Source: Sutcliffiella sp. FSL R7-0096 (GTDB lineage: Bacteria; Bacillota; Bacilli; Bacillales; Bacillaceae_I). From it: a stretch of 64,000 nt of DNA. Positions 7,047 through 39,780 of the stretch are shown in pieces. Made by a program: the position numbers and the translations under genes. The stretch is from positions 2,708,001 through 2,772,000 of the forward strand of contig NZ_CP152003.1 of assembly GCF_038595065.1 (NCBI RefSeq), read 5' to 3'. The notes beneath the pieces are model-generated. The model did not search any database. It was given only the letters and a program-made list of their open reading frames with translations, and was not told the DNA's origin. The stretch's first letter is position 1; every line of letters begins with the position of its first letter.

Positions 7047-7343
7047 GAGACTTTTGACAAATCCTAATGATCTTTAGATTTGCATTTACTTGTTGATCTT
7101 TGATCCAGGCGCTTCTCGCTTTCCTGCGGGCGGTCTGGAAGCCTCCTCGGGCTGCGCCATGGCCACTGATAAACCTAATAACTTATCTTTTTTTATGGTT
7201 TCTAGCTGTTGATTGGAGCAATAGGCGAAGACTCCTGCGGGGTCTTCCCTGTTCCTTCCTCCCGTGGAAGTCTGCGAGCCTTCCACTACGATCAACAAGG
7301 GAATTGCACATCATGAAACTATATTAACTTTTTCTACAAGCTG
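7047..7343. mobile_element. Terminator-duplicating repeat element, older composite copy (E1)
   Basis: 297-bp non-coding element lying between terminator hairpin copies 1 and 2. Its ends (GAGACTTTTGACAAA left; TTTTTCTACAAGCTG right) are decayed versions of the CAG(A/T)(C/G)TGT(T/A)GACAAA ends of the copies at 7367, 18412, 22321 and 27036. The GC-rich core spans 7092-7296. It is interrupted from 7161 by a half copy of another repeat beginning GGCCACTGATAAACC, whose complete relative is at 37139-37355. Confidence 0.75.
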
Positions 7344-7345
7344 AA

Positions 7346-7366
7346 AAACCTCCAGAAAGGAGGTTT
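7346..7366. terminator. Middle hairpin copy (21-bp duplication, left)
   Basis: A hairpin with arms AAACCTCC / GGAGGTTT, identical to 7578-7598. It is the left target-site duplication of the element at 7367-7577 and also the right-hand hairpin of element E1. Confidence 0.8.
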
Positions 7367-7577
7367 CAGTCTGTTGACAAACTATAGATTAGTTTGGTTA
7401 TTACCTATAACAGTTGATCTCCGTTACAGGAGCTTCGCTTTCCGCGGGCAGTCCGGAAGCCTCCTCGGGCTACGCCCTGCGGGGTCTTCCATGTCCTTTC
7501 CTCCCGCAGGAGTCTACGCTCCTTTCACTGCGATCAACGGGGAAACTATAACTTCAAATGACTTTGTCTACACACTG
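7367..7577. mobile_element. Terminator-duplicating repeat element (E2), 211 bp
   Basis: The left end CAGTCTGTTGACAAA and right end TTTGTCTACACACTG are imperfect inverted repeats. The GC-rich core (7413-7538, 126 bp) begins GTTGATC and ends GATCAAC. It is flanked by a perfect 21-bp direct repeat (7346-7366 and 7578-7598) that is a whole terminator stem-loop. Orientation is opposite to the copies at 18412, 22321 and 27036. No convincing ORF and no transposase, so it would have to be moved in trans. Confidence 0.88.
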
Positions 7578-7602
7578 AAACCTCCAGAAAGGAGGTTTTT
7601 TT
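7578..7602. terminator. Proximal terminator hairpin next to the 7606-7800 gene
   Basis: Third copy of the hairpin (7578-7598), followed on the plus strand by a T-run. It directly follows the stop of the minus-strand gene 7606-7800. Confidence 0.75.
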
Positions 7603-9435: not shown

Positions 9436-9844
9436 ATCAATAGTGATCTGTAAGCCATGTTCTGTTCCTTTGTACTGCAAACGGATCGCTCCTTGTACGC
9501 AGGTGGTAACCATCTGTCTACAGAAACTTTAAAGTATCTGTCCCTCTCATCGTTTGGTTCCTTAGAGAAGGTGCCCCTACCATTATTTGGGTTTCTCGCT
9601 CGAGGGGTTTACCTCGTTCCACTCTTACAATTTCTTGTAAGACTACGTCACTGTGGCACTTTCAAGGTATTAACACCATATCTTAAAAGACTTAGGTGCT
9701 TTCCCTGCCGTTAGCTTCGTCCGAAAACCAAGCTACCCTAGCTTATTTTTTCGCTAGGCACGAACACTACAGGCATCTCAGCCTGTGCGAGCATGGACTT
9801 TCCTCTACAGCCGAAACTGTAGCGGTTACCCAATCACTATTGAT
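9436..9844 (-). ncRNA. rnpB: RNase P RNA, Bacillus (type B)
   Basis: About 409 nt, near the B. subtilis length of ~401. Ends were set from the perfect 12-bp P1 helix (9833-9844 pairing with 9436-9447). Conserved blocks on the minus strand include GAGGAAAGTCCATGCTCGCA, AAAGTGCCACAGTGACG, GTGGAACG followed by GTAAACCCCTCGAGCGAGAA, and the 3' GAACATGGCTTACAGA. It is the catalytic RNA that cleaves tRNA 5' leaders with the RnpA protein. Its place between ypsC and gpsB is the usual Bacillus one. Exact termini may differ by a few nt. Confidence 0.96.
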
Positions 9845-18384: not shown

Positions 18385-18411
18385 AAACAACGCAGGGTAG
18401 CTGCGTTGTTT
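18385..18411. terminator. Duplicated terminator hairpin, left copy
   Basis: 27-nt stem-loop with arms AAACAACGCAG / CTGCGTTGTTT. It matches 18622-18648 with one mismatch and is the left flank of the element at 18412-18621. It lies 25 nt after the Hsp20 gene stop. Confidence 0.85.
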
Positions 18412-18621
18412 CAGTGTGTAGACAAAGCTTAAAATAATGAAATATTCTAGTTGATCGCAGTGGAAGGAGCGAAGACTCCTGCGAGAGGAAAGGACATGGA
18501 AGATCCCGCAGGGCGTAGCCCGAGGAGGCTTCCGGACTGCCCGCGGAAAGCGAAGCTCCTGGAACGAAGATCAACTCTTCCAACAGATAACCTAATTAGT
18601 TTATAGTTTGTCAACAGTCTG
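18412..18621. mobile_element. Terminator-duplicating repeat element, 210 bp
   Basis: Begins CAGTGTGTAGACAAA and ends TTTGTCAACAGTCTG (imperfect inverted repeats). The GC-rich 126-bp core is 18450-18575. It is flanked by two copies of a 27-bp terminator hairpin. It sits between the convergent Hsp20 gene and a 49-codon minus-strand gene. The core contains spurious ORFs but no supported gene. Confidence 0.9.
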
Positions 18622-18650
18622 AAACAACGCAGGATAGCTGCGTTGTTTTT
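18622..18650. terminator. Duplicated terminator hairpin, right copy
   Basis: The same stem-loop as 18385-18411, with T-run on the plus side. On the minus strand it directly follows the stop of the gene at 18656-18805. Together the two copies give each convergent gene its own terminator. Confidence 0.85.
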
Positions 18651-18655
18651 GTATT

Positions 18656-18805
18656 TTAGTTTTTATGTGACTTAGAACCGTATTTTTCGTTTTCTTCAGG
18701 AGTCGAGTCCATCTGAATACTTGCGAGCTCTTTCGCAGTTTCTTGGGTGTGCTGGTTATTAGGGTATTTATTTTTACGTTCTCTGTTATCATTTCTGTTT
18801 GTCAT
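18656..18805 (-). CDS. Small hydrophilic protein, 49 aa (possible spore protein)
   Basis: An ATG at 18803-18805 with SD AAAGGGGGGG 7 nt upstream opens a 49-codon frame starting MTNRNDNRERKNKYPNNQ and ending KYGSKSHKN, followed at once by a terminator. It is rich in Asn, Lys, Glu and Gln with no hydrophobic core, resembling minor small acid-soluble spore proteins in composition. I cannot assign it to a named family. Confidence 0.6.
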   Translation of the reverse strand: MTNRNDNRERKNKYPNNQHTQETAKELASIQMDSTPEENEKYGSKSHKN

Positions 18806-21981: not shown

Positions 21982-22172
21982 ACGAAATCCCCTCCATACT
22001 TTGTTAGTATATAATTTCTCCGTTTCAATCACTCTACCTTCCTGTGTGACAAAACTAGAAGCAATTCGTCAAAGAAAGTGTTTATTTGCAAATCCCCTTC
22101 CATTTTTCGCATGAATCCACGCCAAATAGTGAAAAATACTTATGAATGATAATGCAAGGAGGAGTTTTTACC

Positions 22173-22280
22173 ATGTCCAAACAACAGAAAAATCAGCAAC
22201 AACAACGTAAAAACCAAGTGGAAAGCGCACCTGGGCAAGAAGACAAAAAACTAAAAGGGCCAAACCGCCCTTCGACATGA
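22173..22280 (+). CDS. sspM: Small acid-soluble spore protein M
   Basis: 35 aa with SD AAGGAGGAG before the ATG. It starts MSKQQKNQQQQRKNQVES and ends with the family signature GPNRPST. Minor SASP of the spore core, expected to be made in the forespore. Its terminator is split by a repeat element 40 nt downstream. Confidence 0.92.
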   Translation: MSKQQKNQQQQRKNQVESAPGQEDKKLKGPNRPST

Positions 22281-22294
22281 TGTACGAAACATGA

Positions 22295-22320
22295 AAACAG
22301 CTCCTCTAACGGGAGCTGTT
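22295..22320. terminator. Duplicated terminator hairpin, left copy (sspM side)
   Basis: 26-nt stem-loop with arms AAACAGCTCC / GGGAGCTGTT, identical to 22529-22554. Confidence 0.85.
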
Positions 22321-22528
22321 CAGTGTGTAGACAAAGCTTAAAATAATGAAATTCTCAGTTGATCGCAGTGGAAGGAGCGAAGACTCCTGCGGGAGGAAAG
22401 GACATGGAAGACCCCGCAGGGCGTAGCCCGAGGAGGCTTCCGGACTGCCCGCGGAAAGCGAAGCTCCTGCAACGGAGATCAACTCTTCCAACAGATAACC
22501 TAACTAGTTTATAGTTTGTCAACAGTCT
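22321..22528. mobile_element. Terminator-duplicating repeat element, 208 bp
   Basis: Begins CAGTGTGTAGACAAA and ends TTTGTCAACAGTCT. Sequence is nearly the same as the copies at 18412 and 27036, with the same GC-rich core. A perfect 26-bp duplication of the sspM/yppC terminator flanks it. Confidence 0.9.
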
Positions 22529-22558
22529 AAACAGCTCCTCTAACGGGAGCTGTTTTTT
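22529..22558. terminator. Duplicated terminator hairpin, right copy (yppC side)
   Basis: The same stem-loop as 22295-22320 with a plus-strand T-run. It abuts the yppC stop codon. Confidence 0.85.
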
Positions 22559-24312: not shown

Positions 24313-26997
24313 ATGACTGAAAAGTATCAATCAAGAGAACAAAGAAGAAAAGCAATGGAAGAAGAGAGAAATGCCAAGAACGGAACAAAGAAGAAAGGTT
24401 CCAAAAAAGGGCTTTTCAAAAAGATATTTTTATCCGCACTTATTATTGGACTTGTTGGCTTATTAACCGGTATAGGAACATTCGCTTATTATGTGCAAAG
24501 TACCCCACCTTTAGATGAAACGTTACTTAAGGTTCCTGTTCCATCAAAAGTTTATGGAATGGATGGGGAGTTAGCGGCAGAGATTGGTGGCCATGAAGCA
24601 AGGGAATATGTAGATTCAGATGATATACCAGATCTTGTGAAAGATGCTTTCCTTGCAACAGAGGATGTCCGATTTTATGAGCATAACGGAGTGGACTACC
24701 GACGACTCGCGGGGGCTGTATTGGCCAACGTGACAAGAGGATTCGGTTCCGAGGGTGGTAGTACCATCACTCAACAGCTTGTAAAACTATCTTTCCTTTC
24801 CACGGATAAAACCCTAAAACGTAAAGCACAGGAATTTTACCTAGCTTATCAATTGGAATCTCGTTTTACTAAAGACGAAATATTAGAGATGTACTTAAAC
24901 CGTATCTATTTTTCTAACTATGCTTATGGAATTTCCAATGCTGCAAATAATTATTATGGCAAAACTTTGGACGAACTTGAGTTACATGAAGCTGCCATGC
25001 TTGCAGGACTTCCTCAGAGTCCAAACAGCTATAACCCTGTAACAAATCCTGAAAATGCCGAAAAGCGACGTAATATCGTCTTAAGCCTGATGGTGAAACA
25101 TGGCAAGATTACACAGGAAGAAGCCGATGAAGCAAGAGCAACACCTGTTGATGCCACGCTCACCGACGATGTAGAAAAAACGAACTACTCCAACAAATAC
25201 AACGCTTTTATTGATCGGGTCATTGAAGAGATCTCGGATCAATTAGGCGATGTCGACCCTCAGGCGGATGGATTGGAAATTTATACTACCCTAGATGTAG
25301 ATGCACAAGAAGAAGTGGAATATATTCTGTCAGATGAAAGTGGTATTCCACACCTAGATAATGAGGACTATCAAGCTGGCATCGCTCTGATAGACACACA
25401 AAGCGGTGAGATTCGTGCAATTGGTGGCGGACGCAATCATATGAAGACAGGGACAAACTATGCCACAGACATCAAAGTCCAGCCTGCATCCGCAATCAAG
25501 CCGATACTGGATTATGCACCTGCTATCGAATATTTGGATTGGTCCACCTATCATCAGATCAATGATGAACCATACAAGTACTCATCTGGTACCGAGCTGA
25601 ACAACTGGGACAACAAACATAAAGGCTATCTAAGCATGAGACAGCATTTAGCGGACTCCCGAAATATCCCTGCACTAAAAGCCCTGCAAGAAGTTGGCCT
25701 TGACCGCGCTCGTGATTTCGCCGTTAAATTAGGGATCCCCCTAGAGGAAGAAATCAACGAAGCTTATGCGATCGGTGGATTCACAAATGGTGTGTCGCCT
25801 CTTCAAATGGCTGGAGCTTACAGCTCATTCGGTAGTGGCGGGGTTTACACGGAACCTTTTGCTGTAACCAAAGTTGTCTTCCAAGACGGTACAAGTGTCA
25901 ATTTAAATAAAGAATCAGAAGTTGTCATGAAAGACTCTACAGCGTTTATGATTACAGATATGCTGAAAACATCTGTCAGAAGCGGCTTAGCTACCGCTGC
26001 AAACGTACCTGGATTAAATATTGCCGGTAAATCAGGTACGACCAACTTTTCAAAGGATACTATCAATGAATTTGGTATTCCAAACGGCGGTGTCCCTAGT
26101 ACATGGTTTGCAGGTTACACTCCAAGCTATACTGCTGCAGTTTGGACCGGTTTCAGAAGAACAGGCGAAGACAATTATTTGCGCCCTATTGATGGTGTGA
26201 ATCAAGATCAGTACTTGTCACGGATCATCTTCAAGCAATTGATGGAGAGAATTTCCACTACAAGTGAGGATAAAGCTGACTTCCCTGTTCCTAACAGTGT
26301 CGTGCGTGTCCCAATCGAGAAGGGCTCGAATCCCCCATTAAAAGCGAGCGAGTTTACTCCTTCAGATCAGATTACGAACGAATACTTTGTTAAGGGAACA
26401 GAACCTACTCAGGTCTCAAAAGAATATGACAAGCTTCCTACCCCTACTGGCTTTACAGCTCAGTATGATGAAGAAGCAAATGTCATCAATCTAAACTGGC
26501 AGTATCCAGAAGACCGCATCGAGGGTGTAACCTTCGTCATTAACGTAGCTGTTAATGAAGGCTCCCCTCAACCATTGACGGAAACGAAAGATCTTGGATT
26601 AGTTGTAGAATCACCAGACCCTGGGGCAACATTCACATTCGAACTGATTGCCGTACAGGATGAAAACAATGAAAACAGAAGTGACGCAGCTTCTCAAACC
26701 ATTACCATTCCTGAAGCTGTAGAGGAAGAGGATGAAGATGAAAGCATCATCCCAGAAATTCCAACTCCTCCTGGTGACGGTGAAGAGCCTCCTGGGGATG
26801 GCGAAGAGCCTCCTGGTGACGGTGAAGAGCCTCCTGGAGATGGCGAAGGGCCACCCGGCGACGGCGAGGAACCTCCTGGGGATGGCGAAGAACCTCCTGG
26901 TGACGGTGAGGAAACAGACGGTACCAATACACAGAGCAACACCAACCGTAATGGACAGGGTCGTGGCAATAATAATGACTCTGACGACAACGACTAA
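24313..26997 (+). CDS. ponA: Class A penicillin-binding protein 1 (PBP1)
   Basis: 894 aa. Basic cytoplasmic start, one membrane helix (~36-60), then the GT51 glycosyltransferase with its catalytic Glu in ATEDVRFYEH and the block EGGSTITQQLVKL. The transpeptidase follows with SxxK (SAIK in QPASAIKPI), SxN (SRN) and KSGTT. A fibronectin-III-like domain (~710-800) precedes a tail of seven tandem PPGDGEE units and an Asn-rich end. It polymerises and crosslinks peptidoglycan outside the membrane; GpsB, encoded at 10 kb, is its known partner. Confidence 0.96.
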   Translation: MTEKYQSREQRRKAMEEERNAKNGTKKKGSKKGLFKKIFLSALIIGLVGLLTGIGTFAYYVQSTPPLDETLLKVPVPSKVYGMDGELAAEIGGHEAREYVDSDDIPDLVKDAFLATEDVRFYEHNGVDYRRLAGAVLANVTRGFGSEGGSTITQQLVKLSFLSTDKTLKRKAQEFYLAYQLESRFTKDEILEMYLNRIYFSNYAYGISNAANNYYGKTLDELELHEAAMLAGLPQSPNSYNPVTNPENAEKRRNIVLSLMVKHGKITQEEADEARATPVDATLTDDVEKTNYSNKYNAFIDRVIEEISDQLGDVDPQADGLEIYTTLDVDAQEEVEYILSDESGIPHLDNEDYQAGIALIDTQSGEIRAIGGGRNHMKTGTNYATDIKVQPASAIKPILDYAPAIEYLDWSTYHQINDEPYKYSSGTELNNWDNKHKGYLSMRQHLADSRNIPALKALQEVGLDRARDFAVKLGIPLEEEINEAYAIGGFTNGVSPLQMAGAYSSFGSGGVYTEPFAVTKVVFQDGTSVNLNKESEVVMKDSTAFMITDMLKTSVRSGLATAANVPGLNIAGKSGTTNFSKDTINEFGIPNGGVPSTWFAGYTPSYTAAVWTGFRRTGEDNYLRPIDGVNQDQYLSRIIFKQLMERISTTSEDKADFPVPNSVVRVPIEKGSNPPLKASEFTPSDQITNEYFVKGTEPTQVSKEYDKLPTPTGFTAQYDEEANVINLNWQYPEDRIEGVTFVINVAVNEGSPQPLTETKDLGLVVESPDPGATFTFELIAVQDENNENRSDAASQTITIPEAVEEEDEDESIIPEIPTPPGDGEEPPGDGEEPPGDGEEPPGDGEGPPGDGEEPPGDGEEPPGDGEETDGTNTQSNTNRNGQGRGNNNDSDDND
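26767..26913 (+). repeat. Seven 21-bp coding repeats (PPGDGEE) in ponA
   Basis: In-frame tandem repeats with synonymous changes between units (GGT/GGG/GGA/GGC). They give an acidic proline-rich linker outside the cell. Copy number is likely to vary between strains. Confidence 0.9.
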
Positions 26998-27007
26998 TAC
27001 AAAAGTA

Positions 27008-27035
27008 AGAGGCTACCAAATACATGGTAGCCTCT
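27008..27035. terminator. Duplicated terminator hairpin, left copy (ponA side)
   Basis: 28-nt perfect stem-loop with arms AGAGGCTACC / GGTAGCCTCT, identical to 27246-27273. It lies 11 nt after the ponA stop. Confidence 0.85.
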
Positions 27036-27245
27036 CAGTGTGTAGACAAAGCTTAAAATAATGAAATTCTCTAGTTGATCGCAGTGGAAGGAGCGAAGAC
27101 TCCTGCAGGAGGAAAGGACATGGAAGACCCCGCAGGGCGTAGCCCGAGGAGGCTTCCGGACTGCCCGCGGAAAGCGTAACTCCTGCAACGAAGATCAACT
27201 CTTCCAACAGATAACCTAACTAGTTTATAGTTTGTCAACAGTCTG
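27036..27245. mobile_element. Terminator-duplicating repeat element, 210 bp
   Basis: Begins CAGTGTGTAGACAAA and ends TTTGTCAACAGTCTG. Flanked by a perfect 28-bp duplication of the terminator shared by the convergent ponA and ypoC genes. Same orientation and nearly the same sequence as the copies at 18412 and 22321. Confidence 0.9.
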
Positions 27246-27285
27246 AGAGGCTACCAAATACATGGTAGCCTCTCAGTTTATTTTT
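27246..27285. terminator. Duplicated terminator hairpin, right copy (ypoC side)
   Basis: The stem-loop 27246-27273 is followed on the plus strand by CAGTTTATTTTT. It adjoins the end of the convergent ypoC gene. Confidence 0.8.
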
Positions 27286-39610: not shown

Positions 39611-39780
39611 GTTGTATAGCATAATTAAACAAATTCAGTTCAATCCCTCTGTCCCAGTCCTTTGGATCAAGGCAGATATTTGGTTGGTTTACTTCTTCAC
39701 TCAATAATTCAACAGGTGCAGTTCTATTAGATACTGCCCATCATCACTATTATAGAATATATTTGGAAAAGATGCTATGA

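Follow-up and report, generated by a model that had tools for sequence, protein, structure and literature searches.

A MITE family bracketed by duplicated terminator-like hairpins in Sutcliffiella, and its relatives in the IS1182 family

Introduction

The closest described systems are IS1272 and TnSha1 of Staphylococcus, members of the IS1182 family whose targets, in the parts of the two reports drawn on here, are inverted repeats, often terminators, that share no common primary sequence and often lie just 3' of genes (PMC5678879, PMC4923244). Both Wan et al. 2017 (PMC5678879) and Furi et al. 2016 (PMC4923244) observed that IS1272 takes the place of the hairpin, with no duplication left behind, and pathway b in Fig 13 of Wan et al. 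2017 draws duplication of the whole stem-loop as a possible branch, for which the portion used here gives no examples (PMC5678879). Some other members of the IS1182 family had been reported as palindrome-targeting (Siguier et al. 2015, as cited in excerpts of PMC5678879 and PMC4923244). Palindromes also figure in the PATEs of Haloquadratum, which, in the sections of the report used here, carry them near their own ends and make no target duplication, and in the SMR-A elements, which insert into such palindromes, again without duplication (PMC3119063).

The present work concerns a short mobile repeat in a window of 64,000 nucleotides from the genome of Sutcliffiella sp. FSL R7-0096. A preliminary description of this DNA had noted four copies of an element of 210 bp, each standing between two copies of a terminator hairpin, and had proposed that the target is recognised as a structure and copied whole.

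Results

The four copies in the window

The element and its surroundings were resolved into the following features, given with the evidence for each.

7346 to 7366, unstranded: left copy of the duplicated hairpin, 21 bp (direct repeat, L165, and folding)
7367 to 7577, minus strand: MITE copy, A end at 7577 and B end at 7367 (sequence)
7578 to 7598, unstranded: right copy of the duplicated hairpin, then a T run (direct repeat and folding)
18385 to 18411, unstranded: left copy of the duplicated hairpin, 27 bp (direct repeat and folding; the homologous site in G006 is a single hairpin)
18412 to 18621, plus strand: MITE, 210 bp, ends CAGTGTGTAGACAAA and CAGACTGTTGACAAA (sequence)
18622 to 18648, unstranded: right copy of the duplicated hairpin with a T run, of terminator shape (direct repeat and folding)
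22296 to 22320, unstranded: left copy of the duplicated hairpin, 25 bp, or 26 if an ambiguous A is counted (L017, folding)
22321 to 22529, plus strand: MITE copy (sequence; one hairpin and no element in G011 and others)
22530 to 22554, unstranded: right copy of the duplicated hairpin (direct repeat and folding)
27008 to 27035, unstranded: left copy of the duplicated hairpin, 28 bp, 3' of the ponA-like gene at 24313-26997 (L015, folding)
27036 to 27245, plus strand: MITE copy (sequence; one hairpin and no element in G007, G008, G009, G010, G013, G015 and G016)
27246 to 27273, unstranded: right copy of the duplicated hairpin (direct repeat and folding)
18450 to 18575, plus strand: core repeat inside the MITE (element positions 39-164), also found without these ends in many other Bacillales (genome matches)

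All four bracketed copies were thus seen as first described, the third hairpin measuring 25 bp, or 26 with the ambiguous base. The two 27-bp hairpins around the element at 18412-18621 differ from each other by one base, and the copies at 7367, 22321 and 27036 are flanked by other hairpins. Folded as single-stranded DNA, the eight hairpin stretches reached -7.1 to -12.6 kcal/mol, a value equalled in each case by no more than one of 200 shuffles.

The inner 126 bp (GTTGAT...ATCAAC; window 18450-18575, L067-L089) constitute a separate repeat, and another copy of a core-like repeat lies immediately left of the element at 7367 (window 7200-7310, by eye). The element was matched in 65 of 101 relatives and, in the more distant ones, the matches listed were mostly confined to this core (about positions 39-164). 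A search of Rfam found no RNA family inside the window MITEs, and a weak match at 26999-27037 that overlaps a hairpin (E 0.31, 25.5 bits against a cut-off of 50) was taken as chance. Elsewhere in the window, Rfam matched RNase P RNA class B at 9446-9837 (minus strand) and a pan motif at 39645-39740 (minus strand).

Copy number and spread

The four window copies are members of a MITE family of about 210 bp. In their own genome (4.9 Mb, one contig), 244 first-look candidates yielded 40 scored matches, and 33 places carried both end cores at the right distance. The same pattern was found at 148 places in seven of 18 genomes of the family (33, 79, 17, 13, 4, 1 and 1), while the reversed end pattern gave one place in one genome. 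The own copies have a median identity to the consensus of 98.1% (43 rows, two of them chance pairs of ends; lowest row 43%), which suggests that their spread was recent. The element has the traits of a MITE: at 210 bp it is too short for a transposase gene, it is present in many copies, and its duplication is like that of the autonomous elements described below. The duplication analysis covered 125 rows, namely 124 element rows obtained by script, or 122 without repeats, plus three from G013 loci; 50 of the 79 places in G005, seven of the 13 in G012 and three of the four in G013 were analysed. Two L005 rows (six end mismatches each) and the second L095 row are probable chance pairs of ends and were kept among the 125.

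Autonomous partners in the IS1182 family

The preliminary description had suggested a link to IS1182-type transposases and had advised looking for a full-length IS with the same ends. Such elements, with similar ends, exist; they encode IS1182-family transposases and make the same kind of duplication, and the suggested link has held on testing, through model matches above the cut-off, similar ends and long palindromic duplications. Thus, L031 and L032 match the IS1182 model NF033551 with 482 and 477 bits (cut-off 270), and the Pfam domains of the transposase are DDE_Tnp_1_6, DUF772 and DDE_Tnp_1. The autonomous elements carry CAG..TGT.GACAAA at both ends and are mostly about 1.5-1.85 kb long, IS1182 elements in general ranging from 1.3 to 2 kb. 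The B end of the MITE is identical at 15 of 15 positions to the right end of L054, an IS1182 remnant from G012, and the better-matching MITE end agrees at 13-14 of 15 with each end of the intact L031 and L032. All the IS with MITE-like ends examined in the family (L031, L032, the broken L048/L056, L053 and L060) show whole-hairpin duplications of 20-30 bp; L048 and L056 are two views of one element, which has lost some bases from its left hairpin copy.

When named genomes were scanned with two of these proteins, 501 loci were obtained; the best 80 were kept and 79, many of them copies within the same genomes, were analysed, L191 being left out since the contig breaks off within the element. 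Of these 79 (from the best 80 of 501), 67 had a duplication of 19 bp or more and, with two plasmid loci added, the arms paired at 75% or more in 65 of 69 duplications. The 12 loci without a clean duplication comprise five at contig ends (L187, L189, L192-L194), three in which no second end was found (L196, L232, L233), two with outer ends beyond the search range in which hairpin duplications were recognised by eye (L197, L198), one with a clear hairpin on the right side only (L240) and one with unlike hairpins on its two sides (L262), the last two also judged by eye. L197 was seen by eye to hold one IS1182 of the hairpin-duplicating clade nested in another, each with its own hairpin duplication. 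Hairpin-duplicating IS1182 elements with similar ends were found, among the best 80 of 501 loci, in Bacillus, Neobacillus, Cytobacillus, Lysinibacillus, Sporosarcina and Saccharibacillus. The plasmid cases come from Staphylococcus arlettae (21 bp) and Klebsiella (20 bp; 44% identity), and an Enterococcus faecium plasmid carries a 27-bp hairpin duplication (L334); no matching pair of hairpins flanks the ISEfa7-type copies L267 and L335. The transposase on contig 4 of the congener G010 shares 99.8% identity with plasmid NZ_CP082921.1 of S. horikoshii.

In the genome of the window, the search gave no PF13751 match, two weak NF033551 fragments, one fragment of 55 residues at 36% identity and no intact transposase, so the MITEs of this genome look orphaned. 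In G005, which has 79 MITE places, stop codons interrupt the frame of the single partner with such ends that was examined (L048/L056), and the open-frame L039 has non-matching ends; in none of the genomes searched was the MITE shown to occur together with an intact transposase whose element has matching ends. The intact IS in L038, considered as a full-length parent of the window MITE, turned out to be a MITE copy with another IS1182 (ends GGCCACTGAAAAA) in its core. This belongs to a second IS1182 group (ends GGCCACTGAAAAA or similar; L034, L044, L051) whose apparent duplications are short and in many cases small palindromes (GGCTACGCC, GGACAGGTCC), and a member sits in the core of a MITE copy both in L038 (1164-3038) and in L050 (about 1354-1990).

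In the first 45 or so bases of L188, L212, L237, L268 and L032, the terminal repeat pairs with an inner copy of itself, and a T run follows; five of five such end hairpins folded, at -20.6 to -25.6 kcal/mol with RNA parameters. Such a terminator-like IS end, which resembles the element's own target, might protect the element from read-through.

A maximum-likelihood tree of 30 transposases, whose long branches warn against reading its deeper order, separated the group with MITE-like ends (14 rows, L267 included) with support of 99/97. An ISSau3-like group (L042, L033, L332) forms a separate clade (100/100), in which L042 and L033 (ends GAGGCTGGGACAAAA) show no duplication and a search for clear ends of L332 found none; judging from transposase length and size and from its behaviour, IS1272 would belong here. 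A third clade is the short-duplication group of Bacillaceae (100/97), with apparent duplications of 6-11 bp, and six proteobacterial relatives have duplications of 4-6 bp, none being found for a seventh, L331. A search of solved structures with the transposase returned just two chance matches (E 0.18 and 0.27), and a structure prediction with a mean pLDDT of 46 was discarded.

The duplication runs from foot to foot of the hairpin

Direct repeats of 15-34 bp flank 28 of the 30 copies examined in the own genome; the right copy in L013 consists of half a hairpin, and decay is seen in L010 and L030. Over seven genomes, a clear target-site duplication (score of at least 10; 15-35 bp) was found in 110 of the 125 rows. 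For each row, the flanks were joined to rebuild the empty site and the best hairpin was then located: its axis fell exactly at the centre of the duplication in 80 of 110 cases and within 1 nt of it in 104, the remaining six being, by eye, long-loop, mutated or half-lost hairpins. That the other copies of the family, too, would mostly carry duplicated hairpins, a point on which the first description had made its proposal depend, was therefore borne out. Among the 15 rows without a clean repeat, three are chance pairs of ends, seven show by eye a similar hairpin on both sides with indels or several changes (L030, L119, L127, L149, L175, L176, L183), the two hairpins of L178 are related but altered, those of L142 are unlike each other, as recombination between two copies would leave them, and L115, L139 and L172 have a hairpin on a single side.

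The symmetry of the duplicated stretch was measured as the pairing of its two arms about the exact centre. This amounted to 0.756 in the 109 MITE duplications that reach 18 bp or more, compared with 0.267 after shuffling (maximum of 500 shuffles, 0.305), and to 0.917 in 69 IS duplications (67 from the best 80 of 501 loci, two from plasmids), against 0.27; when the axis was moved by half a base, pairing dropped to 0.31-0.35. Counted from the end of the duplication, MITE arms pair at 0.73-0.83 over positions 1-9; the outermost position lies barely above expectation (0.73 vs 0.68) and the next eight far above it (for example, 0.79 vs 0.26), whereas outside the duplication pairing is near expectation (0.63 vs 0.57, 0.58 vs 0.53, 0.38 vs 0.37). 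The pairing and the centring together indicate that the duplication is the hairpin from foot to foot, within a base or so. Three duplications that fall short of the full palindrome are nevertheless centred (L188, L241, L260).

The length of the duplication varies from 18 to 35 bp in the MITEs (sd 3.7) and from 19 to 42 bp in the IS (sd 4.4; best 80 of 501 loci plus two plasmid loci), and it rises with stem length, with a correlation of 0.79 for MITEs and 0.91 for IS (stems of at least 5 bp; IS from the best 80 of 501 loci). The constant length of a canonical DDE insertion is thus absent from these elements, and duplications that stay centred while their length varies and tracks the stem exclude a fixed stagger. 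The IS1272 pattern, in which the hairpin is removed and no duplication is left, is likewise not the one found, because the hairpin stands on both sides of the elements. The two hairpin copies are identical in 53 of 109 MITE duplications and in 66 of 69 IS duplications (best 80 of 501 loci plus two plasmid loci).

The preliminary description had held that the duplicated sequences share nothing except palindromic form, and this is correct for the arms but not for the feet. Arm positions 4-10 carry 0.03-0.08 bit of sequence information in the MITEs and pair at 0.66-0.79; in the IS they pair at 0.86-1.00 (best 80 of 501 loci plus two plasmid loci), with 0.25-0.38 expected from composition. Beyond three A/purine-rich bases, the preference inside each arm is at most 0.08 bit per position. 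The feet, however, are A/T-rich: at MITE targets, A is the first base inside the 5' foot in 92 of 109 cases and the first base outside it in 83 of 109, so some sequence preference contributes.

Empty sites and re-used hairpins

The comparison with relatives gave what an insertion into a single hairpin predicts, as had been put forward for checking: at three window sites, relatives show one hairpin and no element. The 22321 site, for which 130-140 bases were read per genome, is empty and has one hairpin with the same stem in G011 (92% identity in the neighbouring gene), G006, G007, G008, G009, G013 and G016; G010 and G015 also have one such hairpin, with different DNA on its left. The 27036 site lies between the ponA-like gene and its convergent neighbour, and one hairpin is found there in G007, G008, G009, G010, G013, G015 and G016; G014 has another hairpin and G012 no recognised hairpin in the stretch read. 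In G011 and G005 this position holds decayed elements between two hairpins, and in G006 one complete hairpin and a core repeat. At the G011 locus (L273), the loops of the two hairpins have diverged and the stems are complementary and conserved, which suggests that both terminators are under selection there. At the homologue of the 18412 site, G006 has a single hairpin and G011 a different MITE inserted in the homologous hairpin with its own duplication; the other congeners read did not align at this site. No case of two hairpins without an element or a remnant was met among the stretches read at the three window sites.

The homologue of the 22321 hairpin is occupied in G005 by another MITE copy, nearer relatives being empty. 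Since homologous hairpins are occupied by different MITEs, terminators have probably been hit more than once. Moreover, L126, L131 and L153 of G005 are arrays of the form hairpin-MITE-hairpin-MITE-hairpin, built on one hairpin sequence with small changes, and L161 of the own genome contains the start of a similar array, showing that a duplicated hairpin serves as a new target.

Gene context

A mechanical ORF pass over 28 sites in the own genome classified nine as convergent, 19 as co-directional and none as divergent; every one of the 28 is located 3' of one or more mechanical ORFs, and no site falls within an ORF of this list. The nine convergent sites are a lower bound, because this pass missed small genes at two window sites: with ORFs of 49 residues (18656-18805, minus strand) and 44 residues (22146-22280, plus strand; a similar reading exists in several congeners), the 18412 and 22321 sites become convergent like 27036, making at least 11 of 28. 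The earlier picture of an element between two convergent genes therefore fits three of the four window sites, when the small ORFs are counted, and is not general. The orientation of the insertions relative to the terminator is unbiased (13, 16, 13 and 17 among 59 sites with a clear direction), and the test applied found neither a strong T run nor a strong A run at 40 of 109 MITE sites. In hairpin copies that differ, changes are rarer in stems (48 of 776) than in loops (28 of 218; Fisher p 0.002), as if both hairpins were kept as terminators; compensatory changes between the two copies were sought by script and none was found. An insertion may be nearly harmless to the host.

Discussion

Mechanism

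The best explanation of these data, and in our judgement a fairly probable one, is that the element enters a cruciform. The MITE, which has the ends of one IS1182 clade, would most likely be mobilised in trans by such a transposase, as its ends and its type of duplication suggest. The palindromes picked by the transposase would be short, for the most part hairpins of terminator type lying 3' of genes, and probably extruded as a cruciform, and the two 3' ends of the element would be joined to the two 5' feet of the cruciform arms, leaving each arm single-stranded at one side of the element and then filled by repair. As repair would copy both single-stranded arms, the whole hairpin would be duplicated, to a length set by the target and not by the enzyme; and, since the 5' feet are adjacent in a cruciform whatever the length of the arms, one enzyme geometry would serve all hairpins. 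The centred duplications that are shorter than the palindrome (L188, L241, L260) would fit a junction that branch-migrates. The part of the original proposal that concerns copying of the whole hairpin is thus directly visible in the duplications, and recognition of a structure is what would best account for them.

Other explanations account for part of the same evidence. The target could be a hairpin in single-stranded DNA, on the lagging-strand template or where transcription opens the duplex, with the second strand joined opposite the same foot. The same symmetric duplication would be expected, terminators fold readily as single strands, and targeting of single strands does exist in the IS200/IS605 elements; but opposite feet on both strands must be cut, which needs two hairpins or a second rule, and the insertions show no bias of orientation relative to the terminator, so that we regard this explanation as unlikely. 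It is less likely still that the transcription machinery guides the transposase to terminators, through the RNA hairpin or through an RNA polymerase that pauses or terminates there, and that this complex sets the boundary of the hairpin. Terminators may indeed be chosen through transcription and not through DNA shape, given that all 28 own-genome sites lie 3' of an ORF, none between divergent ORFs, and that T runs are many; such a complex is, however, directional, while the insertions are unbiased in orientation, exact symmetry about the axis would be unexpected, and the 40 of 109 MITE sites without a strong T or A run would find no place in it.

Two further explanations dispense with a folded target. 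A sequence motif at two facing feet (about AA/ARR across the foot) could be read in duplex DNA at variable spacing, palindromes being a by-product because terminators have such feet. The A found first inside the foot in 92 and first outside it in 83 of 109 targets is what this would predict, yet positions 4-10, with their 0.03-0.08 bit in the MITEs, pair far above composition, and AT-rich intergenic DNA should presumably hold many pairs of feet without a stem, whereas almost all the duplications have one; we consider it very improbable. As for two hairpins that existed beforehand, with the element recombined or inserted between them, tandem terminators are known, but the homologous empty sites have one hairpin, which refutes this course at the sites examined, and the copies are identical in 66 of 69 IS duplications (best 80 of 501 loci plus two plasmid loci) and 53 of 109 MITE duplications, leaving it a probability close to nil.

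The cruciform model can be carried a step further, and here we are tentative: possibly, this whole clade of DDE transposases reads mainly architecture, namely the four-way junction at the base of the extruded cruciform. The IS1272-like mode would then differ by the foot used, the 5' foot leading to duplication and the 3' foot to deletion, and the consequences would be near-neutral spread, self-made targets and arrays of terminators. If this is true, two terminators are returned for one, and each insertion makes the next target.

Comparison with described elements

To our knowledge, nearly all DDE transposons make a duplication of fixed or nearly fixed length, set by the enzyme; here, in well over a hundred duplicated sites, the length follows the secondary structure of the target. 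Structure-directed transposition thereby becomes directly testable in soil bacilli that are harmless, and the insertion sites may reveal at which places in living cells a structure-reading enzyme has access to small palindromes. The elements also show how a transposon can fill terminators with little apparent damage. An association with palindromes is common to these elements and to the REP-targeting IS, which, unlike them, recognise a given repeat family. The ISfinder tables give direct repeats of 0-60 bp for the IS1182 family, and whole-hairpin duplications may be among them.

Going by the sections of PMC5678879 and PMC4923244 used here, the IS1182 family was already known, and the taste of some of its members for palindromes had been noted in print. 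With the family at large, the elements share the NF033551 transposase and terminal inverted repeats, the detail of whole-hairpin duplication being absent from those portions of text. Among the papers that searches of the open literature listed, none was seen to describe whole-hairpin duplication by an IS or a MITE, apart from the branch drawn as a possibility in PMC5678879. As evidence of absence this is weak, and equally so for what else was not found there, namely hairpin duplication as the rule of a clade, its MITEs, the empty sites and the arrays; long direct repeats may be tabulated in ISfinder.

Prokaryotic MITEs, as treated in the parts of PMC10969869 used here, are likewise short, without a transposase gene, with terminal inverted repeats, a target duplication and many intergenic copies; those of the window family differ in that the duplication is long, variable and equal to a hairpin, a target that those parts describe for no MITE. 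The PATE and SMR elements are alike in their association with palindromes, and PATEs were rejected as an analogue because, in the sections of PMC3119063 used here, they make no target duplication. The closest likeness remains with IS1272 and TnSha1, which, in the text available from PMC5678879 and PMC4923244, share the transposase family and the palindrome or terminator targets. There, IS1272 deletes the hairpin, whereas the elements described here keep and duplicate it, by a mechanism which, as proposed above, would be pathway b of the model of Wan et al. 2017 in the part of PMC5678879 used here; they are thus the duplicating counterpart to the hairpin-deleting IS1272.
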